Assembly: GCA_015061905.1 (NCBI GenBank)
Contig: SUVQ01000009.1
Span: forward strand, 1 to 64,000
DNA length: 64,000 nucleotides
Reading direction: 5' to 3'
DNA from: Verrucomicrobiota bacterium
GTDB taxonomy: Bacteria > Verrucomicrobiota > Verrucomicrobiia > Opitutales > UBA953
The position numbers were made by a program, and so were the translations under genes. Below are positions 1,088 through 64,000 of this stretch, piece after piece. Position 1 is the stretch's first letter. Every line of letters starts with the position of its first letter. The notes beneath the pieces are model-generated. The model did no database searches, was not told the origin of the DNA, and worked only from the letters and a program-made list of their open reading frames with translations.

Positions 1088-1534
1088 TCAGCCTAGGTCG
1101 GTGTAAGTTAGGCTCCTGGACGTATAATATATTTCGTCATCATCGTGCCAAGTGCGAATCTCAATCTCCCCGACTGCGCCCTGCGCTCGTAGAATAATTT
1201 TTTTATGCTTGAGCCTATCCACACTGAACGTGTAGCTCGAGTATGAAGGAATCAAAAAATGTGAATCAGAATCGGGATCTCCAACAAAGTAGAGTGTACA
1301 GCGAATAGCCTTGTTTAGGGTGTTCCGGAGTGTGATTTCGTCTGCGTCTTGATTTATCCTTACTATCAAGGGAAACGGGAACGCGCATTTTATGAGTGTC
1401 GAAATTGTAACATATGACAGTATAGCTACTGCCAGTCCTGCAAGCAATCCCCACCACTCGAGTATCGGATAGAACAGTACGGAGAAAAACCCAAAAATTC
1501 CCCAAAAAAGCAAATTACGAATGAAATCAATCAT
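1088..1534 (-). CDS. Small membrane protein of unknown function
   Basis: The 148-residue product has two hydrophobic segments at about residues 5-25 and 28-52 (FWGIFGFFSVLFYPILEWWG, then LAGLAVAILSYVTIS). A probably extracytoplasmic or cytoplasmic beta domain of about 95 residues follows. Its NTLNKAIRC to SYTFSVDRL stretch resembles the secreted 119-residue protein downstream. A short stretch of about 210 bases without visible signals separates it from the lipoprotein gene upstream. It contains the only DUS-like word of the island (1377). The family is not recognised. Confidence 0.6.
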   Translation of the reverse strand: MIDFIRNLLFWGIFGFFSVLFYPILEWWGLLAGLAVAILSYVTISTLIKCAFPFPLIVRINQDADEITLRNTLNKAIRCTLYFVGDPDSDSHFLIPSYSSYTFSVDRLKHKKIILRAQGAVGEIEIRTWHDDDEIYYTSRSLTYTDLG

Positions 1535-1746
1535 TATTGTTAAGTTTAGAATTTTTTTACTAATTGATCAAAAAACCGTCGCCGCGAAGATAAAAAAGAG
1601 GCTCCATAAATTTTGAGTCCAAGATCCAGAAAGAATCCCATGACTCCTTTCTGAAAAATAAAAATTTGTCCGCCCTCAACTTTCAGTGCACTTTTTTATT
1701 GAGGCATCACGCCGGTCCCGATTTGCGACTATGTATGCAACGAAAA

Positions 1747-2022
1747 CTACCACCACTCCTTGTTACCCAAGTGATTCGGATTACTCGCTTTCTCGATGTG
1801 ATAGTCCCGTATTGAGTCATCCAATTCCGAGCTTTGGTTCTTAGCGGCGTTTAGGCTCTTCTTGAGATGATTTATTTCCAGCTGTAAACTCTGTTTCTCC
1901 TTACGAGCCTTTTCAAGTTCACACGTCAATTGCTTTTCTCGGGCAATTTCTGTGGGACTACTGCAAGCAGAGCAAGTCAATAAAATCCCTAAAAATAAAA
2001 TAAAACAATTAAACGTTTTCAT
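1747..2022 (-). CDS. Small coiled-coil lipoprotein
   Basis: I start this 91-residue protein at MKTFNCFILF. That ATG overlaps the stop of the upstream gene by one base (TAATG), a typical translational-coupling arrangement, whereas the longer frame would begin inside the neighbour. A lipoprotein signal is visible, with lipobox LTCSAC near residue 19. A heptad-rich, highly charged stretch at about residues 28-65 (EKARKEKQSLQLEINHLKKS) should form a coiled coil. The C-terminus is polar. It pairs with the preceding lipoprotein, which has the same design. Function unknown. Confidence 0.65.
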   Translation of the reverse strand: MKTFNCFILFLGILLTCSACSSPTEIAREKQLTCELEKARKEKQSLQLEINHLKKSLNAAKNQSSELDDSIRDYHIEKASNPNHLGNKEWW

Positions 2023-3228: not shown

Positions 3229-3984
3229 ATGAAGAAACGATATATTGGAAGCATCGCTTTTTTCGTTGCCGGATGTTCTTTGGCTTGCGCGGGAACGGTT
3301 ACGGTTGAAACAGCGGAGAAAGATAATCAGGGAACGTATTACGGATTTACGTTGGCTCTTGGAAGCGGCTCGGCGGCACTTACGGATCCGGGGAATATTT
3401 TGGCGGAACATGCCGGAACGTTGGTCTCCCTCGATAGCGTAGATGTGTTGGCGCGCTCAAACGGCTCCTATGAGGAATCTCGCCTCGCGGTTTATTCTTT
3501 CGTCGAAGACGGGAACGTGGGCGATTTTGTCGGGCTGTCCGAAAGTGTATCTTTTTCTCCCGATACAAATTTGAATTTTCAATTTGAAGGCATAGAACTG
3601 GAACTCGGGAAACGTTATCAGTTTTTGTTTGTAGATAAAAACGCGACGGCTACGTTGCTGACAAATTCCGATGAAAGCACGATCCCGCTTCTGACCTTGT
3701 ATCAGCAACATGCCATGCCGTTGGGAATTGCCGTGACGGCGGATCAATACACCGGTTCGATGCTTCCGAGCGGATGGGGAATTTATAAGAGCTCCGGGCT
3801 AAACTCGTGGGAAGGTCATCGCATGCCGGTTGCGTCGGTTACGGTTTCTTCGGTTGAAATTCCGGAGCCGGGAACGTTCGGCGTTCTCGCCGGTGTCGGA
3901 GTGCTTTTGCTTGCGATTTCCCGTCGGCGACGGAGGAAAAATGCTACTTCGGATTCGCGGGAACGCGAGATTTCGCCGTCTTGA
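3229..3984 (+). CDS. PEP-CTERM sorting domain protein
   Basis: I start at MKKRYIGSIA, 5 bases after AAAGGAG, one of the few clear Shine-Dalgarno sequences here. The 251-residue product has a Sec signal peptide (to about residue 24, SLACAG) and a soluble beta-rich body of unknown fold. Its C-terminal signal is VEIPEPGTFGVL followed by a hydrophobic segment and RRRRRK, the tripartite tail recognised by exosortase-type enzymes. Unlike the other two PEP-CTERM proteins here, about 14 residues follow the arginine cluster. That extension contains a DUS-like word and overlaps the convergent thioredoxin-fold gene by 41 bases. Exosortase is not in the window. Confidence 0.85.
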   Translation: MKKRYIGSIAFFVAGCSLACAGTVTVETAEKDNQGTYYGFTLALGSGSAALTDPGNILAEHAGTLVSLDSVDVLARSNGSYEESRLAVYSFVEDGNVGDFVGLSESVSFSPDTNLNFQFEGIELELGKRYQFLFVDKNATATLLTNSDESTIPLLTLYQQHAMPLGIAVTADQYTGSMLPSGWGIYKSSGLNSWEGHRMPVASVTVSSVEIPEPGTFGVLAGVGVLLLAISRRRRRKNATSDSREREISPS

Positions 3985-6195: not shown

Positions 6196-6236
6196 AAACG
6201 TTCCCGCGCGGATTGTTTTTTTTGCGGGAACGTTTT
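6196..6236. terminator. Terminator made of an inverted DUS-like pair
   Basis: CGTTCCCGC and GCGGGAACG flank a T-rich loop, with A and T runs outside. It lies directly after ilvB on the minus strand and before the next minus-strand gene. Confidence 0.85.
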
Positions 6237-6252: not shown

Positions 6253-8115
6253 TTATTCTTTTTTACCCCAAAGCCGTTCAAGGCGGGCAACGGTGCAATC
6301 TCCGCAGGACTCGTTTGTCATGATTTCGAGCGCGGAGCGTCCTGCCGGAAGGAAGGGCAAAACGTGTTCGCCGTAGGGAACGACGACGTCGAGCACGAAG
6401 GGACCCGGCGTGTCGAGCATTTCGCGCATGGCATCGTGCAATTCTTCGCGCTTGATGACGCGGCGACCGTTGACGCCGAAGCCTTTCGCGATGGTTACAA
6501 AATCCGGATAAAGCCCGGGAACGTTATCCGGAGAGCCGATGTTATTGACGTCTCCGAGCAGGGTTTGCCCGCGGTTGGAACCGTAGAAACAGTCTTCCCA
6601 CTGCGCAACCATTCCGAGGAACTGATTGTTCAGAATAACGATTTTGACCGGAAGCTTTTCAACCGACATCGTCGCAAGTTCCTGAATGTTCATGAGAACG
6701 GAGCCGTCGCCGTCCACGTTGACGACGATTTTATCCGGATGGGCGGCGGCGACACCGCAGGCGGCGGGAACGCCGAAGCCCATTGTGCCGGAGCCGAGCG
6801 AGCTGATGAACGTGCGCGGATTTTTAAAGTGATAGTATTGCGGCGTCCACATTTGGTGTTGCCCGACACCCGTGCAGACAATGGCTTCGCCCTTTGTTTC
6901 TTGGTAAAGAGCTTCGATGGCTTCCTGCGGCATGATGTGCGGCGAGCCGTGGCGGTCGTAGCTGAACGGGAACGGATGTTGTTTTTTCCATCCGTCAATG
7001 ATTTTGAACCATTCGGTCAGATCCGGCTTTTTAAAGTTTGTGCGTTCGGCGAGGTCGATTAGGCGTTCGAGCGCGTCGTGAATTTCGCCTTCAATCGGGA
7101 ATTGAACGCGCTTGTTTTTGTTGTGCTCGGCGCGGTCGATGTCGAAATGAACGATGGTCGCGTTCGGCGCAAAGGTTTTGACCGGACCGGTGATGCGGTC
7201 GTCAAAGCGCGCGCCCATCGCAATCAGCAGGTCGGAATGATAAACCGCCCAGTTGCCGGCGACGGTCCCGTGCATGCCGAACCAATAGAGCGATTGCGGA
7301 TCGTCCGGCGGGAACACGCCGAGCCCCATCAGCGTGGATGCGACGGGAACGCCGGTGAGCTTTGCAAATTTGCGGAAAAGCTCCGTCGATTCCGACGAAA
7401 TAATCCCGCCGCCGATGTAGAGCACCGGTTTTTTTGCGGAAGAAATGAGGTCGAGAACGAGCTTGAGCTCGTCGTCCATCGCGTGCTTTTTGCCGGGGAT
7501 TTTTGCCGGAAATTCGTCCATGGATTTCGGGAATTTCGGCGTGAAAAGGGCTTGTTGGACATCTTTCGGAATGTCGATAACGACGGGACCCGGGCGTCCG
7601 CTTGTCGCGATTTTAAAGGCTTTGAACATGATTTCCGGCAGTTCTTCCGCCTTGAGCGCGAGGAAGCTGTGCTTGACGATGGGAAGCGTCATGCCGAAAA
7701 AGTCCGTTTCCTGAAATGCCTGCTTTCCGATGAATTGCGAGAAAACCTGCCCGGTGATGAAGACGACGGGAATGCTGTCCATGAACGCGTCGGCAATCGC
7801 GGTAACGAGATTGGTCGCGCCGGGACCGCTGGTCGCGAAGCACACGCCCGGTTTTCCGGTGGAACGCGCATAGCCGCTTGCCATGAAGCCGCCGCCCTGT
7901 TCGTGGCGGGGGAGGATGATGCGCATTTTTTTCGTTTTGGAAAGTGCCTGGTTCAGTTCGATGGCAGAACCGCCCGGATAGGCAAAAACCGTGTCTACGC
8001 CGAGAAGCTCAAGGCAACGAACGACGACATCTGCGCCGCGCATTTTCGGGCTGTTTTCTGCAGCTCCTGCTTTCAAAAGGGTCGGTTTTCCGGAGTCGGT
8101 TTCAGTTTGGCTCAT
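6253..8115 (-). CDS. ilvB: Acetolactate synthase large (catalytic) subunit
   Basis: This 620-residue ThDP enzyme condenses two pyruvates to acetolactate, or pyruvate with 2-oxobutyrate, at the start of branched-chain amino-acid synthesis. It has the N-terminal ThDP-binding domain with catalytic Glu72 in [12 protein letters not shown], a central FAD-type domain, and the C-terminal ThDP motif from DGDGS to ILNN (about residues 465-495). The length fits the anabolic AHAS large subunit, with a slightly long N-terminus. No ilvN regulatory subunit lies beside it; its upstream neighbour is metX. The 5' third (7350-8115) lacks DUS-like words. Confidence 0.95.
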
Positions 8116-16102: not shown

Positions 16103-16141
16103 AGGCGTTCCCGTCTGTCGGTTTTGGCAGCGCGGGAACGC
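16103..16141. terminator. Bidirectional terminator made of an inverted DUS-like pair
   Basis: GCGTTCCCG and CGGGAACGC flank a loop that contains a second small stem, with A and T runs outside. It lies between the convergent aminotransferase and acetyl-CoA transferase genes. Confidence 0.85.
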
Positions 16142-33868: not shown

Positions 33869-33893
33869 TAATTTTTTTTCCTGAAAAAATTCG

Positions 33894-37025: not shown

Positions 37026-37120
37026 GCCCGATTCAAAAAATAAACTTCGGAAAAAGCCTCTTCCGCAAAACGCGAAATGAGGGGCACTTCTTCCGTTAAA
37101 AAATGAAAACTTTGTCTGAT

Positions 37121-39316: not shown

Positions 39317-39361
39317 AAACGTTCCCGCACGGCAAAAGCCGTTTTGCAGCGGGAACGCTTT
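39317..39361. terminator. Bidirectional terminator made of an inverted DUS-like pair
   Basis: CGTTCCCGC and GCGGGAACG, with a second inner stem ACGGC/GCCGT, between convergent hisF and guaA. The inner segment CACGGCAAAAGCCG is the same as in the serA terminator at 57127. Confidence 0.88.
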
Positions 39362-39420: not shown

Positions 39421-40404
39421 TTACTCCCATTCGATAGTGCCGATGGGTTTCGGTGTAAGATCAAGCAGAACGCGGTTGATGCCTTCGACTTCGTGCGTGA
39501 TGCGATCCGTGATGCGGTGCAACACATCGTAGGGAATTTCTTCAATCGTTGCGGTCATTGCGTCTACGGTATTGACGGCGCGAACAATCGCGGGCCAACC
39601 TTCGTAGCGTTTGCTGTTGCGCACGCCGACGCTTTTAAAATCGGGAACGGCGACGAAGTATTGCCAAACTTTTCCCGCGAGTCCGCATTTGTCAAATTCT
39701 TCCCGCAAAATCGCGTCGGCTTCGCGGAGCGCGTGCAGGCGGTCGCGCGTGATGGCACCGAGGCAACGCACGCCGAGACCCGGCCCCGGGAACGGCTGGC
39801 GGAAAACCATCTTGTCGGGCAAGCCGAGTGCTTTGCCGACGACGCGGACTTCGTCCTTGTAGAGCAGTTTGAGCGGTTCGACGAGTTCCATTTCCATATC
39901 TTCGGGAAGCCCGCCCACGTTGTGGTGCGCTTTTACGCCGTCGCTTTCGAGAATGTCCGGGTAAATTGTTCCCTGAGCGAGGAAGGAAATTCCGGAGAGC
40001 TTTCCGGCTTCTTCGTCGAAAACCTTAATAAATTCGTTCCCGATGATTTTGCGTTTTTTTTCGGGTTCGGCAACGCCGGCGAGCAAATCGAGGAAGCGAT
40101 CCGTGGCGTCGACGTAAATGAGGTTCGCATCCAATCCGTTGCGGAAAACCTCAATCACCTGTTCGCTTTCGCCTTTGCGCATCAGCCCGTGGTTAACGTG
40201 AACGCAAACGAGTTGTTTGCCGATGGCTTTAATCAGTAGGGCGGCGACCACCGAGGAATCGACCCCGCCCGAAAGTGCCAAAAGCACTTGTTTGTCGCCG
40301 ACTTGGGCGCGAATTTCTCGGATTTGCTCCTCGATAAACGCGTTCGCCAGTTCCGGCGTGTTAATACGTGCCATAGATTCAGGACGTATGTTGCTTTGAC
40401 TCAT
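39421..40404 (-). CDS. guaAb: GMP synthase ATP-pyrophosphatase subunit (no glutaminase domain)
   Basis: A 327-residue protein matching only the C-terminal two thirds of GuaA: PP-loop SGGVDSS at 45-51, AHHNVGGLPE, RQPFPGPGLGVR and the C-terminal dimerisation end with LTPKPIGTIEWE. It adenylates XMP and aminates it. The class I glutaminase domain that normally precedes it is missing; only about 20 unrelated residues stand before the pyrophosphatase, and upstream is tRNA-Leu. It must take ammonia from a separate subunit or free ammonium, as in the two-subunit archaeal enzyme. Confidence 0.92.
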   Translation of the reverse strand: MSQSNIRPESMARINTPELANAFIEEQIREIRAQVGDKQVLLALSGGVDSSVVAALLIKAIGKQLVCVHVNHGLMRKGESEQVIEVFRNGLDANLIYVDATDRFLDLLAGVAEPEKKRKIIGNEFIKVFDEEAGKLSGISFLAQGTIYPDILESDGVKAHHNVGGLPEDMEMELVEPLKLLYKDEVRVVGKALGLPDKMVFRQPFPGPGLGVRCLGAITRDRLHALREADAILREEFDKCGLAGKVWQYFVAVPDFKSVGVRNSKRYEGWPAIVRAVNTVDAMTATIEEIPYDVLHRITDRITHEVEGINRVLLDLTPKPIGTIEWE

Positions 40405-42645: not shown

Positions 42646-42735
42646 TGATGTTTCGCGGAAGCGTTGCCGTTAATGCGGCGCGTTCCCGCGAGCGATTTTC
42701 TTCTCTTGAATTTTTTATAGAAACAAGGAATTTAC

Positions 42736-45700: not shown

Positions 45701-45870
45701 GCGCCTCGGGCGCATCGTCCGCCGCGCAGAACTCAATCGGGGTCGGCGTTATCGGCGGGATGTTGGCTTCGACGATTCTCGGCGTCTTCCTGATTCCGTG
45801 CTTCTACGTCATCATCCGCAAGGTGTTCCGCGCCGCCGAACGCAAACCGAACGCCATCGTTAAGCACTAA
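42736..45870 (+). CDS. RND efflux pump (HAE1/AcrB-like), system 2
   Basis: A 1044-residue pump starting MAKFFIDRPVFAWVLSLMIILFG, very close in layout to AcrB and MexB. Asp pair in AIGILVDDAIVVIENVER (TM4), Lys in IIGLSAKNAILIIEFAKD (TM10), and the porter domain segment GSRVYLRDVARIELG. It is clearly distinct from system 1, which is more MdtB/triclosan-pump-like in detail. It sits 90 bases after its adaptor. It exports amphiphiles such as bile salts or antibiotics by family analogy. DUS-like words are absent from 43710 to 44740. Confidence 0.95.
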   Translation: MAKFFIDRPVFAWVLSLMIILFGIIAIKFLPIAQYPTIAPPSISVQASYAGASAETTQKTVTAVIEQQLNGIDNLLYMTSSSDSTGNAEITVYFNPGTDDDTAQVQVQNKVSLATPQLPSDVQRTGVTVKKAARNMFLVISFYSEDGTIPKAEIGNYVASNILDQVQRVNGIGQVDFFGAENAMRIWLDANKLNAYGLTSTDVVAALQAQNVQVPVGEVNGSPAVPGAQLGITIQGPGTLETPDEFGAIFLRTLEDGSRVYLRDVARIELGEMNYQFESHYNGKMSMGLGCKLATGANALEVANAVKAKIEELSKYFPEGLNYAFPYDTTLFVRISIHEVIKTLVEAIVLVFIVMLVFLQNLRATFIPTIVVPIALLGTCAMLFAMGYSINILTMFAMVLAIGILVDDAIVVIENVERIMTEEGLPPREATRKAMDQISGALVGITLVLTAVFIPMAFFSGSVGVIYRQFSLTLISSMVFSLFLALTLTPALCASMLKHNPTGKHGGLAGWFNRNFDRMTKGYKSIVARMIKHSIIGIVSFVAIGAGFGWLYLRLPTAFLPDEDQGNIMALVQLPQTASQERTLKVLEDFENFALAQPEVDSMFAVQGFSFNGRGQNVAMGFIKLKDWSEREGPEHSAEAIAGRISQHFAGHQDGMVLSFNLPAITELGNATGFEYQMQDRGGIGHEALVSAMNEVFKKANAPESTMAGVRLQGLNDGPMLKMNVDLEKAQTLGIDANSLYSTIQVAFGSAYVNNFVQGSRVQRVIVQLGAEDRTSPEQLGKMFVRTKTGAMVPLSEIVSFEWIMGAPALKRYNGFPSLNIVGQPKPGRSSGEAMKEFDEIIMNYLPSVGVNGVGGEWTGQSLEERTSGSQAPALYALSLIIVFLCLAALYESWSIPFAVLLIVPVGIFGSVCATMLGGLYNDVYFKVGFLVIIGLSAKNAILIIEFAKDLQEQGRNLYDATLEAVQLRLRPILMTSFAFILGVLPLARASGASSAAQNSIGVGVIGGMLASTILGVFLIPCFYVIIRKVFRAAERKPNAIVKH

Positions 45871-45871
45871 T

Positions 45872-46005
45872 GAAAGATGAGAGATGAGGGCTTAGAGATG
45901 AGAGGTCATTGCGTTCCCGCAAGTGGGAAAAGTTTTTTGAAAATCTTTTTCCGGTAATACCTCTAAGCTCTAAGCTTTAAGCTCTCAACCATCCTTTAAA
46001 AAAGA
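45872..46005. repeat. Intergenic hairpin of GCTTAGAGATGAGAGG/CCTCTAAGCTC type
   Basis: GAGATGAGGGCTTAGAGATG on the left is loosely mirrored by CCTCTAAGCTCTAAGC on the right; the interior has a DUS-like word and an AAGATTTTC/GAAAATCTT pair. It separates the pump and channel genes of system 2. Confidence 0.65.
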
Positions 46006-46012
46006 AAAAATC

Positions 46013-47473
46013 ATGTTCAAATATCTTTCCGTTCTTCCGTTTCTTGCCGTCGCAACGGCGTGCACGACAATGGCGCCCGATTACGAACGCCCCGACGTGG
46101 ACAATATCATCGCCGAAACCTATGCGGGAATCGCCGCGACGACGCCGGACGAAACCGCCGTCACGCGTCTCGGCTGGTCGGAATTTTTCGCCGACGAACG
46201 CCTCAAAGCCCTCATCAAAACCGGGCTTGAAAACAACCGCGATTTGCGCGTCGCCATTCTGAATGTCGAACAGGTGCGCGCACGCTACGATATTCAGTGG
46301 GCGGAACTGCTCCCGAATGTCGGCGGGAACGGCTCGTTTACGCGTTCCCGCACAAACGAATATCTTTCGCCCTACGGAAAGGCGGTAACGTCCAACACCT
46401 GGCAACTCGGCGTTGCCGCTTCCTACGAAGTCGATCTTTGGGGACGCGTGCGCTCGATGACGGATCAGGTTTTTGAAACCTGGCTCGCCGCCGCCGAAAA
46501 CGAACGCGCCGTGCGCCTCTCGCTCGTCGCCGGAATCGCGCTTCAATACTACACGCTCCAGCTCGCGAACGAACGCCTTTCGCTTTCGCAAAAATCCCTC
46601 CTTACGACGCAGGTTTGGTATAACATTATGAAAGACCGCTTCGAAAAAGGCGCGATTACCGAAATCGATCTCGCCTCCGCCGAAGCTCAATACCAAGCGA
46701 TGGTTTCCGCAACGGAACAACTCCGCGAAACGCAGAAACAGGCGAAAAACGCGCTCGCGCTCCTCGTCGGCGGAACCGAGCTTCCGAAGCTTAGCGGCGT
46801 TCCCGCGCTTCCGATCGCTTCCGCAAATCTGCTCAAGCCGCTCGAAGCGGGAATCCCGTCGTTCGCGCTCGTTTTGCGTCCGGACGTTCTCTCCGCCGAA
46901 CGCATGCTCCGCGCCGCCAACGCCAACATCGGTGCCGCCCGCGCCGCGTTCTTCCCGAGCATTTCGCTCACGGCAACGGGCGGTGTCGCCTCCGTCGAGC
47001 TCGACGACTTATTCACGGGCGACGCGCGCACGTGGAGCTTTGTGCCGAGCGTGAACGTGCCGATTTTCGATTACTTTAACGGTCGCCTCGAAGCGCAACT
47101 CGATGTCGCCGAGCTCCAAAAAGAAATTGAAATCGCCAACTACGAAAAAGCGATCCAGACGGCGTTCCGCGAAGTGGCGGACGAGCTCGTCGTGCAGGAA
47201 TCCATCGATAAGCGCATCGCCGCAAGCGAAGCCGCGCTCAAAGCACAACTGCGCCGCTACAAGCTGACTTCCGCAAATTATCGCGGCGGCGACGGCGTGC
47301 TCAGCTACACGGACGTTCTGCTCGCGCAAAATGATTTGTTCGCCGCCGAGCAAACACTCGTGCAAACGCGCTTTGCGAAAATCGCTTCGATGATTTCGCT
47401 CTACAAAGCCCTCGGCGGCGGCTGGACCGAACAATCCGTTCCCGAAGGCGAACAGGTCGCCGCTACGGAGTAG
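46013..47473 (+). CDS. NodT/OprM-type outer-membrane efflux lipoprotein, system 2
   Basis: A 486-residue channel starting MFKYLSVLPFLAVATACTTMAPDYERP. The lipobox ATAC is at about 15-18, and the APDYERP motif is the NodT-family start. The two helical OEP repeats include VAASYEVDLWGRVRSMTDQVFETWLAAAENERAVRLSLVAGIALQYY and, later, ANANIGAARAAFFPSISLTATGG, both diagnostic. It completes efflux system 2. It is a different subfamily from the TolC-like channel of system 1. Confidence 0.93.
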   Translation: MFKYLSVLPFLAVATACTTMAPDYERPDVDNIIAETYAGIAATTPDETAVTRLGWSEFFADERLKALIKTGLENNRDLRVAILNVEQVRARYDIQWAELLPNVGGNGSFTRSRTNEYLSPYGKAVTSNTWQLGVAASYEVDLWGRVRSMTDQVFETWLAAAENERAVRLSLVAGIALQYYTLQLANERLSLSQKSLLTTQVWYNIMKDRFEKGAITEIDLASAEAQYQAMVSATEQLRETQKQAKNALALLVGGTELPKLSGVPALPIASANLLKPLEAGIPSFALVLRPDVLSAERMLRAANANIGAARAAFFPSISLTATGGVASVELDDLFTGDARTWSFVPSVNVPIFDYFNGRLEAQLDVAELQKEIEIANYEKAIQTAFREVADELVVQESIDKRIAASEAALKAQLRRYKLTSANYRGGDGVLSYTDVLLAQNDLFAAEQTLVQTRFAKIASMISLYKALGGGWTEQSVPEGEQVAATE

Positions 47474-47500: not shown

Positions 47501-47540
47501 ACGTTCCCGCGCGACGAAAGTCGGTTTTATGCGGGAACGT
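47501..47540 (+). terminator. Terminator made of an inverted DUS-like pair
   Basis: ACGTTCCCGC pairs with GCGGGAACGT, with an inner CGAC/GTCG stem, then a run of T. It ends the efflux operon. Confidence 0.9.
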
Positions 47541-47852: not shown

Positions 47853-48659
47853 ATGAAAAAATATATCACACTCGCGGCTCTCCTCGCTGTAGGAAGTGCT
47901 TTCGCAAATGCCGCTTCTCTCGGCTACAACAGCATGACGGACGCGCAGAAAGAAGGTGTTGTCCTCGCATGGGATTTTTCCGGAACCCCGCCGACGGGGA
48001 TTCCCGTCGTGGGGGCAGGGAATGATGATTGCTTTACTGTAGTGGATGGTAAAGCTGTTGTGGACGAAGGAAGCGGAAATCCCTGGACGGATAGCCTCAC
48101 GGATAACTTTTCCGACGGGAACTTTACGTTCAGCCTTGATGTCAACAGCTTCACGGCAAGCAATTGGCAGACGCTTGTTGCGTTGTATTCTGTCGGCGGG
48201 CATGGCGATGGAAAATCACTCCAAATCGGAGTAACAAGCGATGGGGAATTGTCGGTTTTCAACAAAGTTGCCGGTGAAACGGGCTATGCAAGCATTGAAA
48301 CAAGCGAGAATATTAGTACCGGCTTGATGAGCGGATATTCCGGAGATGCGACCGTAACCGTTGTTTCCGATATGACAAATACGAAAACGTTGTCTGTCTA
48401 TGTTGACGGGGAACTTAAAGGAAGCCATTCGAATTGGACGGCATCGACTGACCAAGCTCTTATGGGGCTCCAGATTGGAGCGGCTTTCGGAGGCGGGCGT
48501 GTTTTCCCTGAGGCGACAATCAGTAATATCACGCTTTGGAACAAGGCGTTAAGTGCAAGCGAAGTATCTGCAATCGTCGTTCCCGAGCCGTCTACGTTCG
48601 GATTGTTTGCGGGCTTGGGCGCGTTGGCACTCGTGGCATCGCGTCGCCGCCGCAAATAA
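47853..48659 (+). CDS. PEP-CTERM protein with LamG-like domain
   Basis: A 268-residue secreted protein with signal peptide MKKYITLAALLAVGSAFANAA, almost the same as that of its paralogue at 31359. The body is a LamG/concanavalin-like fold: FTFSLDVNSFTASNWQTLVALYS, TKTLSVYVDGELKGSHSNW and ATISNITLWNKALSASEV. The C-terminal tail is VVPEPSTFGLFAGLG, a hydrophobic stretch, then SRRRRK. I start at the ATG that begins the signal peptide. Possible roles are adhesion or glycan binding at the cell surface. Confidence 0.9.
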   Translation: MKKYITLAALLAVGSAFANAASLGYNSMTDAQKEGVVLAWDFSGTPPTGIPVVGAGNDDCFTVVDGKAVVDEGSGNPWTDSLTDNFSDGNFTFSLDVNSFTASNWQTLVALYSVGGHGDGKSLQIGVTSDGELSVFNKVAGETGYASIETSENISTGLMSGYSGDATVTVVSDMTNTKTLSVYVDGELKGSHSNWTASTDQALMGLQIGAAFGGGRVFPEATISNITLWNKALSASEVSAIVVPEPSTFGLFAGLGALALVASRRRRK

Positions 48660-49145: not shown

Positions 49146-51335
49146 ATGTCTTACATTCGATTTCATGCCGTAGAACGTGCTTCCAACCGGAAAGTCGTCG
49201 TTGTTCCCCCGCCGCAGGCGAAAATTTCCGAATTTTTCGGGTGCAAGGTTTTCAACCGCAAAGCGATGGCGAAATATCTCTCGAAAGAAACGTTTCGGGC
49301 GATTACGCATGCGATTGATTTCGGCGAGCCGGTTTCTTTGGAGCTTGCCGCGCACATCGCTCCCGCGATGCGAATGTGGGCGATGGAAAACGGCGCGACG
49401 CATTACACGCACTGGTTTCACCCGCTGACGGACGGCACGGCGGAAAAGCACGACGCGTTTGTCGAGCGCGACGGGAACGGCGGCATGATTGAGGAATTCA
49501 GCGGGAAGATTCTCGCTCAGCAGGAGCCGGACGCGTCGTCGTTCCCGAACGGCGGTTTGCGCTCGACGTTTGAGGCGCGAGGCTATTCGGCGTGGGATCC
49601 GTCGTCGCCCGCGTTCATTGTAGGCGATACGCTTTTTATCCCGACGATTTTTATTTCCTACGCGGGCGAGGCTCTCGACTACAAAGCGCCGCTTTTGAAG
49701 TCGCTGGAAGCGGTGAACAAGGCGGCGGTCGGAGTTTGCAAATATTTTAATTCCGACGTAACGCATGTGCAGTCGTCGCTCGGTTGCGAGCAGGAATTTT
49801 TCCTGATTGACGAGGAATTGTTCAACGCGCGTCCGGATATTGTTTTGACGGGGCGCACGCTGATGGGGCACGAATCGGCGAAAAATCAGCAGTTGGAAGA
49901 CCATTATTTCGGGGCGATTCCGCGCCGCGTTCTCGCGTGTATGCAGGAGCTGGAATACGAAGCGTGGAAGCTCGGCATTCCCGTGAAAACGCGCCACAAC
50001 GAAGTTGCGCCGAATCAGTTTGAGCTCGCGCCGATTTTCGAGGAATGCAACCTTGCGGTGGACCACAATTTGCTTTTGATGTCGCTCATGCGAGATGTCG
50101 CCCGCCGGCACAATTTCCGCGTGCTTTTGCACGAAAAACCTTTTAAGGGCGTGAACGGTTCGGGCAAGCACAACAATTGGTCGCTCAGCACGAACACGGG
50201 CGTTAATCTTTTTTCCCCGGGGAAAAACTCGATGGAAAACCTGCGTTTCGTGACTTTTGTCGTGAATACGCTGATGGCACTTTACAAAAATAACGCGCTT
50301 TTTAAAGCTTCGACGGCATCGGCGACGAATGCGCACCGCCTCGGCGCGAACGAAGCACCGCCGGCGATTATTTCTTCCTTCCTCGGAAAACAGGTCAGCG
50401 ACATTCTCGATGCGTTTGAAAAAAGCTCGGTTGACGACGCGATCAAGGTGGACAGCAAGAAGCAGATTAAGCTCGGTGTCGGGCAAATTCCGGAATTGCT
50501 TGTCGATAACACGGACCGCAACCGCACGTCGCCGTTTGCGTTCACGGGGAATCGTTTTGAGTTTCGCGCAATCGGCTCGATTGCGAATTGTGCGTCGGCG
50601 ATGACGGCGGTCAATGCGGCGGTTGCTTATCAGCTCAAGGAATTTAAAACGGAGGTGGATGCGCTTATCGCGGGCGGAATGTCCAAAAAAGAAGCGCTTT
50701 ACACCGTTATTAAAAAATACATCAAGGAGTCGAAGCCGATTCGCTTTGACGGGAACGGCTATTCCGAAGAATGGCGGGAAGAGGCGGCGCGGCGCGGCTT
50801 GGACTGCGAGACGAGCGTTCCGCTGATTTACGATGCTTACACTTCACCGCAGTCGGTAAAGGTTTTTGCGAACGGGAACATCCATTCCAAGAAGGAGCTG
50901 GAAACCCGCAACGAGGTGAAGTGGGAAATTTACACGAAAAAGCTTCAGATTGAGGCACGCGTTCTCGGCGATTTGTCGCACAATCACATTATTCCCGTGG
51001 CGATTCGTTACCAATCGGTTTTGCTGGACAATGTTGCGAAGCTCAAGGCGGTGTTCCCGCCGGAAAAATTCAACGAGCTGGCGACGGAGCAGTTGCGCCT
51101 GATTGAGGCGATTAACGAGCATGTCAGTGCCGTTACGAAAAATGCCGAGGAAATGATTGAATGCCGCAAAAAAGCAAACCGGATTGAAGACGCCCGCGAG
51201 AAAGCGATTGCGTATCACGACACGGTTTTGCCGTATTTCGACGCGATTCGCTACCATATCGACAAGCTCGAATTGCTCGTCGATAACGAAATGTGGCCGC
51301 TCCCGAAATACCGCGAGTTGCTTTTCGTGCGTTAA
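49146..51335 (+). CDS. glnN: Glutamine synthetase type III
   Basis: A 729-residue GSIII, much longer than GSI (about 470). It has the type III N-terminus (VFNRKAMAKYLSKETF), ATHYTHWFHPLTDGTAEKHDAF, the glutamate-binding SLGCEQEFFLID, TRHNEVAPNQFELAPIFEE and GVNGSGKHNNWSLST ATP/metal segment. A C-terminal helical region follows. I start at MSYIRFHAVER, 11 bases after the -10 box. GSIII is common in Bacteroidetes, Verrucomicrobia and anaerobes. It has its own promoter with three phased repeats upstream and a DUS-pair terminator. It has no DUS-like word from 49547 to 50750. Confidence 0.95.
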   Translation: MSYIRFHAVERASNRKVVVVPPPQAKISEFFGCKVFNRKAMAKYLSKETFRAITHAIDFGEPVSLELAAHIAPAMRMWAMENGATHYTHWFHPLTDGTAEKHDAFVERDGNGGMIEEFSGKILAQQEPDASSFPNGGLRSTFEARGYSAWDPSSPAFIVGDTLFIPTIFISYAGEALDYKAPLLKSLEAVNKAAVGVCKYFNSDVTHVQSSLGCEQEFFLIDEELFNARPDIVLTGRTLMGHESAKNQQLEDHYFGAIPRRVLACMQELEYEAWKLGIPVKTRHNEVAPNQFELAPIFEECNLAVDHNLLLMSLMRDVARRHNFRVLLHEKPFKGVNGSGKHNNWSLSTNTGVNLFSPGKNSMENLRFVTFVVNTLMALYKNNALFKASTASATNAHRLGANEAPPAIISSFLGKQVSDILDAFEKSSVDDAIKVDSKKQIKLGVGQIPELLVDNTDRNRTSPFAFTGNRFEFRAIGSIANCASAMTAVNAAVAYQLKEFKTEVDALIAGGMSKKEALYTVIKKYIKESKPIRFDGNGYSEEWREEAARRGLDCETSVPLIYDAYTSPQSVKVFANGNIHSKKELETRNEVKWEIYTKKLQIEARVLGDLSHNHIIPVAIRYQSVLLDNVAKLKAVFPPEKFNELATEQLRLIEAINEHVSAVTKNAEEMIECRKKANRIEDAREKAIAYHDTVLPYFDAIRYHIDKLELLVDNEMWPLPKYRELLFVR

Positions 51336-51360: not shown

Positions 51361-51395
51361 AAACGCGTTCCCGTGAGATTTGCGGGAACGCGTTT
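51361..51395. terminator. Bidirectional terminator made of an inverted DUS-like pair
   Basis: CGCGTTCCCG pairs with CGGGAACGCG around a 9-base loop, with A and T runs outside, between convergent glnN and the PA14-like gene. A third DUS-like word precedes it at 51342. Confidence 0.9.
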
Positions 51396-51425: not shown

Positions 51426-52787
51426 TTAACGGCGTTTGGTTTGTTTGGACATAAAGTTTGGACCTTCAACTTTGTATTTTCCTTCGATATAAAGGATTTC
51501 CTGAAGTTCCGGCTCGATTGCCGCGAGCTTGAATACCGAGTAGGGCGCGTTCGGATCGGCACGCTCACCTTTCTTTTCGATGCCGAGAATTGCACCGGCA
51601 TAACCGCCGGCACCTTCGCCGAAGGCGATACAGATTTTATACTTTTTTCCTTTTTGAAGCTTCATCCAGCTTCCTTTGAAAAGGTGGTTCTGAATCGTGC
51701 TACCACTTCCGGAGCCTCTGCCGTCGTTCTTGCAGTGGTCTTTCGGTTCCCAATTGGCTCCGGCAGGTTCGCGAACGGCACGCCCGTGACCTTCGCCCGG
51801 CCAGTAGGCGTAGAAAACGGTTTTGCGGTCGATCCCGACGATGATGACGTCGTCGCCCATGCCGACGAAGCGGTATTCTCCGGTTTCCGGCGGAGTGATT
51901 TCGCCTTCGTAGACGACCATCCAGCCCGGGGCGGCGAAAGGCGGTTTCCCGTCTTCTCCGGCGAATGCTGCAGTGGCAGCCGTTGCCTGAATGATGTTTT
52001 TCGTTTTTACGTCTTTGTAAATGTAAACCTGGTTGGCGTTGAGCTTTGTCGGTGCTTCGAAATAACGTTGCCCCAGTTTTCGGACATCGAAGCCGTTGTT
52101 GTCGAGCATGCCGATCGCTTTGTGGAGCTCTTCTTTACGTTTTCCCTTGTCGTTGTTGTTGATCGTGCAGTAGGTAATTTTTCCGTCGCGGGAACGCTTG
52201 AGGTCAAACAAAGTTCCTTTAAGAGTCGGCGTTTTGGAGAAGCTGGTTCCGAATGCGGAGAGGAACGAGCGACCGTTGCCGATGCCGGGACCGATGCCTT
52301 TGCCGATCCCGCCGCCTGCGCCGCCGCCGAGCCCGGAGGAGCCTCCTGCCTTCATGCCGCCCATAGAGCCCATGGAGCTGCTCATCTTCGGCATTTCCGG
52401 AAGAGTGAGCGTAGCACGCGTGCTCTTGGAAGTGATTTTGTTCTGCGTGTTCATGTCGCGCGGTTTCGGGCGCATGCGGTGCTTTTGGCGATTAGCATTT
52501 TCCCCGTTGCTTCCGCCGCCGGCGCCGGAAACGAATTCGGCGGGTTCGGGCGGTTCGGGGCGCACGGTTGCTACGACATAAAAGAGCGCGAAAACGATGA
52601 GTGCCGCGTGAAGGATAACGGAAACGATAAAGCCGTCTCCCCCGAATGATTTCCACGAAAACTTTGTGTGTCGCTTTAGCGGGTCTTCGCCGTTTTCGTC
52701 AACGGCGGGCATATCGTTGTAATAATCCTCTGCCGCGTTGTCCTGCGGCGGGAGCGGATATTCTTCGTTAGGATTTTGGGGTTCCAT
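51426..52787 (-). CDS. Membrane-anchored Gly-rich protein with PA14-like domain
   Basis: A 453-residue protein with a TonB-like plan. A short acidic cytoplasmic N-terminus leads to one membrane helix (about 53-74, FIVSVILHAALIVFALFYVV), then a Pro/Gly-rich periplasmic linker (75-185, with GGSSGLGGGAGGGIGKGIG) and a C-terminal domain of about 250 residues. That domain contains WMVVYEGEITPPETGEYRFVGMGDDVIIVGI, the pattern of PA14-type carbohydrate-binding sandwiches, and SWMKLQKGKKYKICIAFGEG. It stands alone. No TonB C-terminal motif, ExbB or ExbD is seen. Role unknown. Confidence 0.75.
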   Translation of the reverse strand: MEPQNPNEEYPLPPQDNAAEDYYNDMPAVDENGEDPLKRHTKFSWKSFGGDGFIVSVILHAALIVFALFYVVATVRPEPPEPAEFVSGAGGGSNGENANRQKHRMRPKPRDMNTQNKITSKSTRATLTLPEMPKMSSSMGSMGGMKAGGSSGLGGGAGGGIGKGIGPGIGNGRSFLSAFGTSFSKTPTLKGTLFDLKRSRDGKITYCTINNNDKGKRKEELHKAIGMLDNNGFDVRKLGQRYFEAPTKLNANQVYIYKDVKTKNIIQATAATAAFAGEDGKPPFAAPGWMVVYEGEITPPETGEYRFVGMGDDVIIVGIDRKTVFYAYWPGEGHGRAVREPAGANWEPKDHCKNDGRGSGSGSTIQNHLFKGSWMKLQKGKKYKICIAFGEGAGGYAGAILGIEKKGERADPNAPYSVFKLAAIEPELQEILYIEGKYKVEGPNFMSKQTKRR

Positions 52788-55532: not shown

Positions 55533-57104
55533 ATGAAAAAAGTTCTTATTCCGACCAAACTTGACGGCGTCGCCTCCAAAATGCTTGCGGCGCAAGGTTA
55601 TGAAGTGGTTCAAAACTCGGAAACTCCGCTTTCGGAGCTCGTCGCGACGCACCCGGATACGCAGATTCTCATCGTTCGTAGCGAAAAGGTTACGCCGGAA
55701 ATTATCGACGCGTTGCCGAAGTTGCGCATCGTCGTGCGCGCCGGCGCCGGTTTTGACAACATTGACATCGTTTATGCGCGCAAGAAAAGTATCGACGTTA
55801 TGAATACGCCGGGCGCGAACGCCAACGGCGTTGCCGAAGAAGTGGTGGCGATGATTTTGGCGACGTTTCGCCACATCGTTCCCGCAGACGTTTCCACGCG
55901 CGCGGGGCGTTGGGAAAAGAAAAAATACATGGGGCGAGAACTCACGAAAAAGACCGTCGGGATTGTCGGGCTCGGCAACATCGGACGCCTTCTCGCGAAG
56001 CGGCTTCAGGGGTTTGAGCCGACGCTTCTCGGCTACGACCACTTTCTCGCAAAGCAACGCGCGATCAATATCGGCGTGCGTCCGGTTTCGCTGGAGCAGA
56101 TTTTTGAAGAAGCCGATGTGATTTCTCTTCACGTTCCCGGCGGTGCCTCCACGCAAAAAATGATTTCGACGGATTTGCTTTCCCGCATGAAAGACGGCGC
56201 GCTTCTGATCAATTGCTCGCGCTACGGCGTTGTGGACGAGGAAGCATTGGCGGAGCTGAAGGCTTCCGGCAAAAAAATTCTCTACGCGACGGACGTTCAT
56301 CCGAAAGACGCGGAAGGCGAAAAACCCTCGGCGGGTGTCGCCGATCTGATTCTTCCTCATTTGGGCGCAAATACGAAAGAAGCGAATTTTAACGCGGCAA
56401 AGCGTGCCGCGGAAGAAACGATCGCGTATTTTGAAAACGGAGATACTTCCTGCGTCGTCAACGCGGAAACGCCGCAGGGATTGCACCCGATGCAATTGCG
56501 CTTGGCGCGTATGCTGGCGACGCTCGCGCGCCTCGTCAGCGGCAACCGCCCGGTTCGCAAAGCAAACTGCACGTTCTCGGGAAGTCTTCGCGAGTTTCGC
56601 AAATGGTTTACACCGAAAATCCAGGAAGGCTTGCTTCCGGAATCCGAGAAAAACCTGCCGCCGCCGGCAGCGGAGCTTTCTTTGCGCGAACACGGAATCG
56701 ATTACAAGGCGTGCGAGCCGCTCAGCGGGAACGTCGAGGAAGATTCCATTACGCTTGAGATTTTCACCGAAAGTAGCGGACGCTACCACACCGTTTCCGT
56801 GCACGGAATCGTGGCGGAGGACGTGCCGATAATTTCCCGCGTGGACGGATTCCGGAGCCTCTATTTCGACCTGCGCGGACACCTGCTTTTCGTGCGTTAT
56901 ACGGACCGCCCGGGCGTGCTCGCCCGCATCGCCAGCGTGCTCGGCGACGCGGAAATTAATATCGAAAACATTTCCGCGCCGATTGACCACGATGTCGGGG
57001 AAACGCTCGCCGTTATTAAAACCAACAAGCCCGTAACCTCGGCTCAGGTTTCCGCGATTACGACGCTTATCAAGGCACTTGATGTTTTCGCGGTTACGTT
57101 TTAA
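55533..57104 (+). CDS. serA: D-3-phosphoglycerate dehydrogenase
   Basis: A 523-residue SerA, which starts serine synthesis by oxidising 3-phosphoglycerate. Rossmann motif VGIVGLGNIG at 143-151; catalytic region VRAGAGFDNID and LILPHLGANTKEAN with the active His. An intervening domain follows, then a C-terminal ACT domain (RYTDRPGVLARIASVLGDAEINIENIS), the serine-binding regulatory module. The length matches the long type 1 enzymes. I start at the ATG giving MKKVLIPTKLDG. A DUS-pair terminator follows it. Confidence 0.93.
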   Translation: MKKVLIPTKLDGVASKMLAAQGYEVVQNSETPLSELVATHPDTQILIVRSEKVTPEIIDALPKLRIVVRAGAGFDNIDIVYARKKSIDVMNTPGANANGVAEEVVAMILATFRHIVPADVSTRAGRWEKKKYMGRELTKKTVGIVGLGNIGRLLAKRLQGFEPTLLGYDHFLAKQRAINIGVRPVSLEQIFEEADVISLHVPGGASTQKMISTDLLSRMKDGALLINCSRYGVVDEEALAELKASGKKILYATDVHPKDAEGEKPSAGVADLILPHLGANTKEANFNAAKRAAEETIAYFENGDTSCVVNAETPQGLHPMQLRLARMLATLARLVSGNRPVRKANCTFSGSLREFRKWFTPKIQEGLLPESEKNLPPPAAELSLREHGIDYKACEPLSGNVEEDSITLEIFTESSGRYHTVSVHGIVAEDVPIISRVDGFRSLYFDLRGHLLFVRYTDRPGVLARIASVLGDAEINIENISAPIDHDVGETLAVIKTNKPVTSAQVSAITTLIKALDVFAVTF

Positions 57105-57123: not shown

Positions 57124-57169
57124 AAACGCGTTCCCGCACGGCAAAAGCCGATCTTGCGGGAACGCGTTT
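57124..57169 (+). terminator. Terminator made of an inverted DUS-like pair
   Basis: AAACGCGTTCCCGC pairs with GCGGGAACGCGTTT, with an inner stem CGGC/GCCG. The inner loop CACGGCAAAAGCCG is identical to that at 39317-39361. A T-run follows. Confidence 0.9.
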
Positions 57170-61195: not shown

Positions 61196-61206
61196 TTTCA
61201 AAAAAA

Positions 61207-62583
61207 ATGCTTTCGATAAAACCGTTCCGCCATTTTCGTCGGGCAAGCGTAACGCCGCCCGGCTCGAAAAGTATTACGAATCGTGCGCTGATTCTCGCGG
61301 CTTTGCGCACGGGAACGACACGCCTTGCGGGAACGCTTTTCTCCGAAGATACGCGCACGATGATTGCCTGTTTGCGTAAGCTCGGGTTTCGCGTCGAAGC
61401 GAACGAAGAGGAAAAAACGGTTGAAATCGAAGGGCTCGGCGGAGAAATTCCCGCTACCCGCGCCGAACTTTTCGTTGCCAACGCGGGAACGGCGGCGCGC
61501 TTCCTTACGGCGATGCTCGTTTTGAAAAAAGGCGGCGAGTTTTTTCTCGACGGAAGCGACGCGATGCGCAAACGCCCGATGTCGGGCTTGCTCGACGCGC
61601 TCGCCCGCCTCGGTTGCGAATTTGAGTTTCACGGCGAGCGCGGATTTTTCCCGTTCACGATGAAAACGCACGGCGTTTCCGCGCGCGAAATCACGGTCGA
61701 CGCGCGCGCTTCGAGCCAAATTCTTTCCGCGCTGATGCAAATCGCGCCCGTCGCGGGAACGCAAAACGGCACAGGAATTTTTGACGTTTTTCTGAAAGGC
61801 GAAACGGTTTCGCGACCCTTCGTCGAAATGACGGCGCGCATGATTGCTCAGTTCGGCGGAGCCGTCGAAGCGCGCGGGAACGCATTTACCTGCGGCGGCG
61901 GTTATGCCTGCGGGAATTTTGATTATGCGATTGAGCCGGATGCGACCGCCGCATCTTATTTCGCGATTTTGCCTTTCGTTCATCGAAACAGCGAGGTTTG
62001 TATTGAGGGATTGAATACAAACGGATTGCAGGGCGACGCCGCTTTTGCCGTCGAGCTCGCCGTTCCGCCGCGCGACTTGCTCTCCGTCTCTCTCCAAGAA
62101 CGGGGCGGAATTGCCTCTTGCCGCGTTTCCGCCGGGACTTCAACGCGCGGATTCGACATCGATTTCAACGCGATTTCCGATACGTTTCTGACGCTTGCCG
62201 CCGTCGCTCCGCTACTCGACGCGGGAACGCCGCTCACGATTCGCGGCATCGCCCACACGCGCAAGCAGGAAACCGACCGCGTGGCGGCAATGGCGACGGA
62301 GCTTGCGAAAATCGTCGGTGCGGAAAATGTTTCGCAAACGGAAGATTCTCTCACGATTTCTCCGGTTTCCCGCAGCGAATTGCGTTCCCGCGCGGATGCG
62401 GCGCCCGGCGGAAAGATTCGAATCGCCACTTACCGCGATCACCGCGTGGCAATGAGCTTCGGGATTCTCGGCATATTCGATTTGCGGGGCGACGGCTCTC
62501 CTTGGATTGAAATCGAAAATCCCGAATGTTGCGGAAAAACATTTCCGGATTTTTTTGAGGTGCTTGAAAAAATCCGGGCGTAA
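61207..62583 (+). CDS. aroA: 3-phosphoshikimate 1-carboxyvinyltransferase (EPSP synthase)
   Basis: A 458-residue enzyme joining shikimate-3-phosphate and PEP in aromatic amino-acid synthesis. It has TPPGSKSITNRALILAAL at the N-terminus, GNAGTAARFLTAML, RPMSGLLDALARLG, and DHRVAMSFGILG at the C-terminal active-site loop (with R-E-K-like TRKQETDRVAAM). The start is MLSIKPFRHF. Seven DUS-like words (61311-62382) occur in 1.4 kb, among the densest genes here. It is followed closely by the helicase gene. Confidence 0.95.
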   Translation: MLSIKPFRHFRRASVTPPGSKSITNRALILAALRTGTTRLAGTLFSEDTRTMIACLRKLGFRVEANEEEKTVEIEGLGGEIPATRAELFVANAGTAARFLTAMLVLKKGGEFFLDGSDAMRKRPMSGLLDALARLGCEFEFHGERGFFPFTMKTHGVSAREITVDARASSQILSALMQIAPVAGTQNGTGIFDVFLKGETVSRPFVEMTARMIAQFGGAVEARGNAFTCGGGYACGNFDYAIEPDATAASYFAILPFVHRNSEVCIEGLNTNGLQGDAAFAVELAVPPRDLLSVSLQERGGIASCRVSAGTSTRGFDIDFNAISDTFLTLAAVAPLLDAGTPLTIRGIAHTRKQETDRVAAMATELAKIVGAENVSQTEDSLTISPVSRSELRSRADAAPGGKIRIATYRDHRVAMSFGILGIFDLRGDGSPWIEIENPECCGKTFPDFFEVLEKIRA

Positions 62584-62622
62584 TTATTTTTTAACGACAA
62601 AATGGCGTTCCCGCAGAAAAAA

Positions 62623-64000
62623 ATGAACATTCCGGAAGATACGCTCGTCGGCGTATTGGAACGTATCATTTTTTTTAACGACGAAAATTTTTATACCATC
62701 GGCGAAGTTTGCGAGGAAGCAACGCGCGAAACCTTTACGGTCGCGGGAACGCTTCCGTCCGTTCAATGCGGGGAGACGCTCGAATTGCGCGGTGTTTGGA
62801 CGAGCCATCCGACGCACGGGCGGCAGTTCAAAATCGCCTCGTTTTCGTCGAAGCTTCCGTCGAGCGTTCACGGTATTCGCAAATATCTCGGAAGCGGGCT
62901 GGTGCGCGGTATCGGAAAAACCTACGCCGCACGCATTGTCGAGCACTTCGGCGCAGACACGCTTCGGATTATTTCGGAAGAATCCGCGCGTTTGCGCGAA
63001 ATTCCCGGCATCGGCGCGCAACGCGTTCGCGCCATCAAGGAATCCTGGGACGAGCAGTTCGCGTTGCGGGAAGTGATGATTTTTCTCCAAACCTACGGCG
63101 TAACCACGGCTCAATGTCTGCGCATAGTTAAAGCTTACGGCGCGAACGCTAAAAAAACTTTGCAGGAAAATCCCTACCGCCTTGCGCAGGATATCGACGG
63201 TATCGCGTTCCCGACGGCGGACAAAATCGCCTCTAATCTCGGGCTTCCCACCGAAGGGAAACAACGCATCGAAGCCGGCGTTTTCTACGCGATGCAACTC
63301 GCGGAGGCGGAAGGAAATACGGCGTTCCCGAAAGACGAATTGATTGCAAAAGCAACGGAGCTTTTGGGAACGGATCCGGGGTTGCCGGAAAAAACGGTCG
63401 CCGAAATGCTCGAAAACGGGCGCTTTGTCTATGCCGACGTGCCGCGCTATGTGCGCAATCCGGACGGCTCGCGTTCCCGCGAGATTATCCGGCTTTTGCA
63501 AAAACGCGATTACGCTCACGCCGAGCGCGATATCGGTGCCTGCGTTTCCGCGCTTTTGGAAACGCCGAACCGCTTGCCGCCGATTCACGTCGAGCGTGCT
63601 TTGGTTTGGGCGCAAAACCGTGCGGGCTTTGCTTTTGCGCCCGAGCAGGCGGATGCCGTTAAAACGGCGCTTCGCGAAAAAATCTCCGTCATTACGGGCG
63701 GTCCGGGAACGGGAAAAACAACGATTCTTCAGGCGATTTGCTCGATTCTTCGTGCCAAAAACGTGCGGGTTACGCTCGCCGCGCCGACGGGACGCGCCGC
63801 TCAGCGCATGAGCGAAACCGCCGGAATGCCGGCGGGAACGATACATCGGATTCTCAAGCCGGAACCCTTACTCGGCGGTTTTTCTTTTAACGAAAAAAAT
63901 CCTCTCGCGACGGATTTCGTCGTGGTGGACGAAGCGTCTATGCTGGATACCAAGCTCGCCGCCGCGCTTTTTCGTGCCGTTCCCGCGGCGGCGCATCTCG
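62623..64000 (+). CDS. recD2: RecD2-like helicase (ATP-dependent exonuclease family), 5' part
   Basis: The frame is open from its start to the end of the window (459 residues seen). MNIPEDTLVGVLERIIFFNDENFYTIGEV is the N-terminal OB-like start of stand-alone RecD2/TraA helicases. A helix-hairpin-helix region follows (EIPGIGAQRVRAIKE), then Walker A GGPGTGKTT at about 359-367 and Walker B VVVDEASML near the end. An in-frame ATG at 62602 would add seven residues and contains a DUS-like word. It unwinds DNA in repair and recombination. The C-terminal SH3-like and UvrD parts lie beyond the window. Confidence 0.9.
   Translation, partial: MNIPEDTLVGVLERIIFFNDENFYTIGEVCEEATRETFTVAGTLPSVQCGETLELRGVWTSHPTHGRQFKIASFSSKLPSSVHGIRKYLGSGLVRGIGKTYAARIVEHFGADTLRIISEESARLREIPGIGAQRVRAIKESWDEQFALREVMIFLQTYGVTTAQCLRIVKAYGANAKKTLQENPYRLAQDIDGIAFPTADKIASNLGLPTEGKQRIEAGVFYAMQLAEAEGNTAFPKDELIAKATELLGTDPGLPEKTVAEMLENGRFVYADVPRYVRNPDGSRSREIIRLLQKRDYAHAERDIGACVSALLETPNRLPPIHVERALVWAQNRAGFAFAPEQADAVKTALREKISVITGGPGTGKTTILQAICSILRAKNVRVTLAAPTGRAAQRMSETAGMPAGTIHRILKPEPLLGGFSFNEKNPLATDFVVVDEASMLDTKLAAALFRAVPAAAHL

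Follow-up and report, generated by a model that had tools for sequence, protein, structure and literature searches.

A candidate self-DNA uptake sequence in a genus of gut Opitutales, phylum Verrucomicrobiota

The octamer CGGGAACG saturates the window studied here, a 64,000-nucleotide stretch (bases 1–64,000 of contig 15) of a draft Verrucomicrobiota genome of 2.08 Mb that is 98% complete in 17 contigs. Judged from sequence, the word, preferably in the context GCGGGAACGC, quite probably acts as a self-DNA uptake sequence in the genus to which this genome belongs. It is over-represented and balanced between strands, occupies all reading frames, forms pairs in terminator order, and is conserved in some relatives and decayed in others; genes for a pilus-type ATPase, a secretin, ComEC, and DprA are present. 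A preliminary description of the window had read the word as serving DNA uptake, and that interpretation is now well supported, though not proven. Self-DNA uptake words are described as known only in Neisseriaceae and Pasteurellaceae in PMC12616744, and our best reading is that CGGGAACG would be a third, independently evolved one, and the first outside the Proteobacteria.

Abundance and coding context of the word

The preliminary description had put the copy number in the window at about 200, with some 115 and 95 copies in the two orientations and roughly one per 300 bases, and had called the word non-palindromic and present on both strands and in all gene frames. Our counts agree closely: 204 copies, 110 on the plus and 94 on the minus strand, at a mean spacing of 308 bases, and CGGGAACG is not a palindrome. 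The expectation given there, about 2 copies, was too low; dinucleotide shuffles yield 6.35 and an order-3 Markov model that masks the word yields 9.2. Under an unmasked order-3 model (23.2 expected), CGGGAACG is the top enriched 8-mer of the window. The predicted flanks were also recovered, with 79 copies of the 10-base form GCGGGAACGC against 2.6 expected, and each position more than one base outside the word on either side carries at most 0.07 bit.

Across the whole genome (2,081,963 bases) we counted 6,550 copies, 3,233 on one strand and 3,317 on the other, or one per 318 bases. The reversed word occurs 85 times (46 + 39), 77-fold less often. Because this control lacks CpG, the comparison with a Markov model is the fairer measure. 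In a 445-kb sample, made up of the window and 20 further stretches of the same genome, CGGGAACG is the top 8-mer with 1,417 copies against 50 expected, a 28-fold excess. Here the preceding base is G in 60% of copies and the following base is C in 52%; GCGGGAACGC accounts for about one third of copies (483 of 1,415 in the part of the genome analyzed).

The word occupies all six reading frames and is about equally dense in coding DNA (3.17/kb, 1,069 copies) and intergenic DNA (3.23/kb, 348 copies), the intergenic share being approximate, as genes were called by a simple script that scores codons (316 genes, 76% coverage). Throughout this analysis gene names rest on profile matches, and the genomes are drafts. 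Relative to expectation from the encoded proteins and codon use, the word is in 11.5- and 11.9-fold excess, while six control rows lie at 0.3–2.6. A few word-centered hairpins that recur near-identically (for example in L169, L173, L185, and L187) might raise the suspicion of an artefact caused by composition, codon usage, or a family of repeats. The 28-fold excess over Markov expectation, the 77-fold excess over the reversed word, and the 11–12-fold excess over codon-aware expectation refute it, as do the nearly featureless flanks, and we give this explanation practically no weight.

Inverted pairs and predicted terminators

Pairs of words at most 30 nt apart are arranged unevenly in intergenic DNA, where 47 stand in the order CGTTCCCG...CGGGAACG against 9 in the opposite order and 9 on the same strand. 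In coding DNA the corresponding numbers are 17, 15, and 54. A TTTT run lies within 12 bases downstream of 35 of the 47 terminator-order intergenic pairs versus 3 of the 9 opposite-order pairs, and 15 of the 47 sit between convergent genes. Inverted word pairs have probably been co-opted as intrinsic terminators, each a predicted hairpin followed by a T-run; six examples in the window are listed in Table 1. Inverted pairs of uptake words are reported as terminators in Neisseria and Pasteurellaceae (PMC1852404; Kingsford and colleagues), and the excess of terminator-order pairs with T-runs seen here matches the pattern described there for uptake words.

Near-identical inverted-pair hairpins recur at L169:292-319, L187:5364-5391, L173:630-657, and L185:629-656, some of them lacking a T-run; this is perhaps a small mobile hairpin. 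Word-free gaps are in modest excess. In 541 kb there are six of at least 2 kb (2.9 expected) and one of at least 3 kb (0.1 expected). Five of the six are AT-rich (40–46% GC) and hold, as annotated by eye, glycosyltransferase-like, repeat-protein, and ATP-binding-protein genes; the remaining one (55% GC) holds phage-like genes, also by eye. Ordinary long genes can also run nearly 2 kb without a word. Bases 1–2827 of the window are AT-rich with short open reading frames and a single word copy, and are perhaps recently acquired DNA.

Distribution within the genus, family, and phylum

The genus, a group of gut Opitutales, is likely Candidatus Spyradosoma. The named close relatives of the acetolactate-synthase-like gene of the window (named by eye), at 91–99% identity, are gut Opitutales bins and Candidatus Spyradosoma merdigallinarum. 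Six of the eight genus genomes hold 5,192–6,550 copies of CGGGAACG; the two word-poor members, G014 and G016, hold 1,362 and 546. The remaining 71 of the 79 family genomes have 29–375 copies each. In a draw of 387 Verrucomicrobiota genomes, more than 5,000 copies were found only in the three genus members drawn, and the next-highest count was 1,037 in 6.2 Mb.

A word count covering 60 of 80 named loci identified five as word-dense: L001, L002, L003, L005 (a piece of G015), and L007. Two sparse loci, L004 (3 copies; a piece of G016) and L006 (6 copies), group with the dense ones in the acetolactate-synthase tree, and the other 53 have 0–3 copies each. In this tree L004 and the word-rich clade of the window are sisters (95/94), as are L006 and word-rich L007 (99/96). 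Read at face value, the topology would require at least two changes, either one gain and two losses or several gains, a choice that a single gene tree cannot settle. One-base neighbors, for example CGGGGACG, are in excess in G014 (35 vs 9.0) and G016 (18 vs 4.9) relative to the source genome (15 vs 17.5), which favors an ancestral word that later decayed, with the caveat that other neighbor words, such as CGGGATCG (106 vs 16.8), are enriched in the source genome too.

Upkeep and decay of word sites

The strongest evidence that the word has a function in word-rich species is the contrast between retention and loss of its sites. We aligned stretches of the source genome to relatives, covering a fraction of each genome, and counted intact word sites, with the remaining CGNNNNCG octamers of these alignments as controls. 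Pooled over word-rich relatives, 237 of 329 word sites are intact against 655 of 2,020 controls (L001 54/60, L002 12/17, L005 14/20, G012 41/59, G015 37/54, G013 56/76, G011 14/24, G017 7/12, L007 2/7). Not all rows are independent, as L005 lies within G015, and the signal is weak in L002 (p = 0.04) and L007 (p = 0.09) taken singly. In word-poor relatives only 12 of 103 word sites are intact against 167 of 844 controls, at or below background (G014 9/72, L006 0/6, G016 3/25). Overall identity is similar (76–80%) for word-rich G011, G012, and G015, which retain word sites, and for word-poor G014, which has lost them to the point that old sites are intact less frequently than controls (p = 0.049).

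There is a weak hint that specificity in G014 has shifted instead of being lost. GCGGGAA occurs 115 times in 80 kb against 28 expected, and old word sites (n = 69) keep an identity of 0.80–0.87 over GCGG and 0.57–0.78 over the last five bases, against 0.76 overall. Terminator-order pairs number 7 versus 1 reversed in G014, and G016 has none. The top words of G016, among them ACCACCAACC (1,434 copies, 731 + 703; loci L086–L090 and L241), are clustered at short spacing, often near contig ends among the places listed. ACCACCAACC occurs 0–2 times per genome in the remaining seven genus members, and we rejected it as a second uptake word on account of this clustering and near-absence.

Competence and pilus genes

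The preliminary description had called for competence and type IV pilus genes in the lineage, and these are present. ComEC, DprA, T2SSE-type ATPases, and prepilins are found in all eight genus genomes and a secretin in seven, the G011 assembly (about 200 contigs) giving no secretin match. The locations of the main genes are given in Table 1. The PilM-like gene matches Pfam PilM_2 and scores 270 bits with an Amuc_1101-family model, under its cut-off of 650.

Both word-poor species retain these genes. Since upkeep of the word has stopped while the machinery genes remain, it is probably the specificity or its use that was lost or shifted in them, not the pilus genes. As a separate observation, G014 (C36, C66) and G016 (C62, C75) have two secretin matches each, compared with one or none in the word-rich six, along with three or four extra prepilins and one extra strong T2SSE ATPase match. 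This set could be a secretion system gained or lost along with the word.

The four-gene minor-pilin cluster is a receptor candidate, as is a short lone pilin (L184:9858-10271, G000:C16), which might be a pilus-tip protein. The latter has at least 24 relatives in a search of 5.8 billion proteins, with strong, full-length family matches only in the eight genus genomes. As a marker of word-rich species it was rejected; word-poor members carry it, and the copy of word-rich G017 is equally diverged (48%). For a GspH-like minor pilin, too, no signature clearly set word-rich species apart.

Table 1. Coordinates of the word, predicted terminators, competence and pilus genes, and other features. Unprefixed coordinates refer to the window.
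Feature	Location	Context	Reading
Word CGGGAACG, 204 copies (110 on +, 94 on -)	1376..63985 (first copy at 1376, last one ends at 63985)	both strands; 308 bases apart on average	preferred context GCGGGAACGC
Inverted pair CGTTCCCG...CGGGAACG, A/T tails	6199..6232	between two minus-strand genes, just after acetolactate-synthase-like 6253-8115(-)	predicted terminator
Inverted word pair, A/T tails	16106..16140	between convergent genes	predicted two-way terminator
Inverted word pair, A/T tails	39320..39357	between convergent 38529-39290(+) and 39421-40374(-)	predicted two-way terminator
Inverted word pair, T tail	47502..47539	29 bases after gene 46013-47473(+)	predicted terminator
Inverted word pair, T tail	51366..51390	between convergent 49266-51335(+) and 51426-52787(-)	predicted terminator
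Inverted word pair, T tail	57129..57164	25 bases after gene 55533-57104(+)	predicted terminator
GspE/PilB-type ATPase, PilT, second GspE/PilB-type ATPase, GspF/PilC-type protein	L228:10880-16665	together	
PilM-like gene, two genes without Pfam match, secretin	L182:14136-20000 and L230	in this order	
ComEC	L183:10296-12146	contig 15, ~47 kb beyond the window	
DprA	L229:4677-5825		
Four-gene minor-pilin cluster	L171:10596-13804	lone prepilins elsewhere	
Two neighboring gene sets	32677-38500 and 41431-47473		resembling, by eye, efflux pumps of the RND type with outer-membrane channel
PEP-then-RRRR protein tails	3280-3984, 31275-32135, 47853-48659	further ones in L180 and L183	resembling PEP-CTERM sorting signals (by eye)
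Repeat, ~40 copies including GGATTGAAAC in 40 kb	L091/L092 (G001:C3)		probably a CRISPR array

Weighing the uptake reading against its rivals

Several observations weigh against an uptake role, some of them in favor of a rival. Words inside genes show a mild sense bias (594 vs 475, p = 0.0003), and local word-strand preference correlates weakly with GC skew (Spearman 0.44, p = 0.04). The correlation would fit a Chi-, KOPS- (FtsK orienting polar sequence), or nucleoid-protein-type site that serves recombination or chromosome handling. The strong leading-strand bias expected of Chi or KOPS is absent, however, from the genome-wide strand counts (3,233/3,317) and from the GC-skew comparison, in which the G-rich strand carries 714 words and the opposite one 664 over 22 pieces of at least 10 kb (p = 0.19). 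At its spacing of 318 bases the word is also far denser than Chi, and decay in close relatives is not what one would expect of a maintenance site. We find a site of this kind very improbable.

The outer bases of the word, GCG....CGC, complement each other, which recalls HIP1 of cyanobacteria. This, together with enrichment of the neighbor CGGGATCG, speaks for the chief rival, namely that a methyltransferase with linked repair or conversion creates and keeps the word and no uptake is involved. HIP1-type words reach a comparable abundance, 1,000–2,000 per million bases, and PMC4390886 describes a matching methyltransferase in every carrier genome. Against this stands the non-palindromic form of CGGGAACG. 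Two methyltransferase families were searched; PF00145 has three matches in word-poor G016 but none in word-rich G011 or G015, and PF01555, with 1–4 matches in each of the eight genus genomes, does not track the word. Terminator pairs are possible for any abundant word, but those observed closely fit the pattern of uptake words. In the distant families f22 and f27 of the phylum, CGGGAACG reaches up to about 10 times its reversed control at fewer than 0.25 copies/kb (for example, 826 vs 84 in G103 and 983 vs 300 in G172). This excess may be due to composition, the reversed control being without CpG, or to something weaker of the same kind. Such moderate excess elsewhere in the phylum moves our confidence by a hair, away from uptake and toward the HIP1-like explanation, which on the whole we consider unlikely.

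The remaining unfavorable points concern the machinery and the material. The named relatives are metagenome-assembled genomes. ComEC is found in 73 of 79 family genomes and is not special to word-rich members, so that the machinery permits the word but does not predict it; retention of the machinery genes by both word-poor species likewise means that gene presence does not discriminate. The ComEC of the source genome has no Lactamase_B match, and ComECs with the competence domain only do occur, according to PMC6299819. The pilin with a visible DNA-binding site that the preliminary description had hoped for was not found. All seven detected mature prepilins of G000 are acidic (isoelectric points 4.3–5.3) with 0–3 cysteines, and none is singled out as ComP-like. 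Structure models of relatives of the short lone pilin and the GspH-like minor pilin, P0001 (99% identical, predicted local distance difference test (pLDDT) 87) and P0045 (88%, pLDDT 77), gave no match in the PDB with E below 0.001. That no pilin stands out as receptor would suit a word that acts after uptake, biasing for instance the protection or recombination of DNA in the cell, without being read by the pilus. For the two known families, by contrast, PMC12616744 places the bias at the first, extracellular stage, and we give a post-uptake role little credence.

Three outcomes had been named in advance as speaking against uptake: genome-wide counts close to Markov expectation, a strong leading-strand bias with no terminator pairing, and total absence of competence and pilus genes. 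We found instead a marked excess, balanced strands with terminator pairs, and the genes themselves, which supports the uptake interpretation.

Proposed mechanism and significance

In the mechanism we propose, a type IV pilus tip protein would bind word-bearing DNA outside the cell, and the predicted pilus would retract and draw the bound DNA in for transformation. ComEC would pass single strands inward, where DprA with a putative RecA may recombine them. Such biased uptake would import word-bearing alleles more often, and the word could thereby accumulate and persist. It seems likely to us that the Verrucomicrobiota hold a third independently invented self-code for transformation, whose core is denser than the densest uptake word compared, which is shared by deep branches of the genus, and which species that keep their pilus and ComEC genes abandoned or changed, probably on two occasions.

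If this is true, an unrelated word in a further phylum would make self-recognition by uptake words, a curiosity with two examples until now, a strategy that evolved repeatedly. Whether such words accumulate through biased-uptake drive or through selection for kin DNA could then be tested by comparing the systems. Close relatives that no longer maintain the word would provide something like a natural knock-out, and the genus would be a natural experiment on the building and losing of a bacterial mating barrier. By implication, members of this phylum would also be naturally transforming in animal guts.

In the open-licence literature, the letters of the word appeared, among the matches listed, only in works unrelated by title and abstract start. 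By the same measure, none of the matches listed focused on transformation in Verrucomicrobiota. The sole match for Verrucomicrobi- with uptake sequence was a metagenomics review, and searches for Opitut- with transformation terms showed no Opitut- among the matches listed.

Comparison with known systems

Chi and KOPS sites are short, over-represented, non-palindromic octamers that are strand-biased and, in known cases, much sparser; CGGGAACG differs from them in its strand balance. HIP1 of cyanobacteria shares with it a GC-rich octamer form, very high density, and a lineage-specific distribution with low or replaced words in some members, as described in PMC4390886. HIP1 is the palindrome GCGATCGC (or an alternate palindrome), with matching methyltransferases according to the same source, whereas CGGGAACG is non-palindromic.

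In the respects assessed here from sequence, the word resembles the DNA uptake sequence (DUS) of Neisseriaceae and the uptake signal sequence (USS) of Pasteurellaceae. Its terminator-order pairs, the retention of its sites, and the slight surplus of long word-free gaps agree with the uptake words of Neisseria and Haemophilus. With the DUS it has in common a short non-palindromic form, thousands of copies, terminator pairs, and, by prediction, a route by type IV pilus, ComEC, and DprA. It differs in phylum and in the word itself, the DUS being of the GCCGTCTGAA type with a CTG core (as given in PMC12616744) and unrelated to CGGGAACG. The DUS receptor is the minor pilin ComP, with two disulfides and an electropositive stripe, to which no candidate here was singled out as similar. 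PMC3630211 gives about 1,900 uptake words in N. meningitidis and 5,918 kingDUS in the 2.4-Mb genome of Kingella oralis; setting 6,550 8-base cores in 2.08 Mb beside these is not a like-for-like comparison, only about one third of the copies being GCGGGAACGC. The USS is likewise a short, abundant, non-palindromic word with terminator pairs and a pilus, ComEC, and DprA route, its predicted receptor is ComN/PpdA, and a within-gene orientation bias, like the one found here, is reported for it in PMC2346458. Its word, AAGTGCGGT or ACAAGCGGT in PMC12616744, is a different one, and the AT-rich downstream extension of the USS is absent from CGGGAACG.

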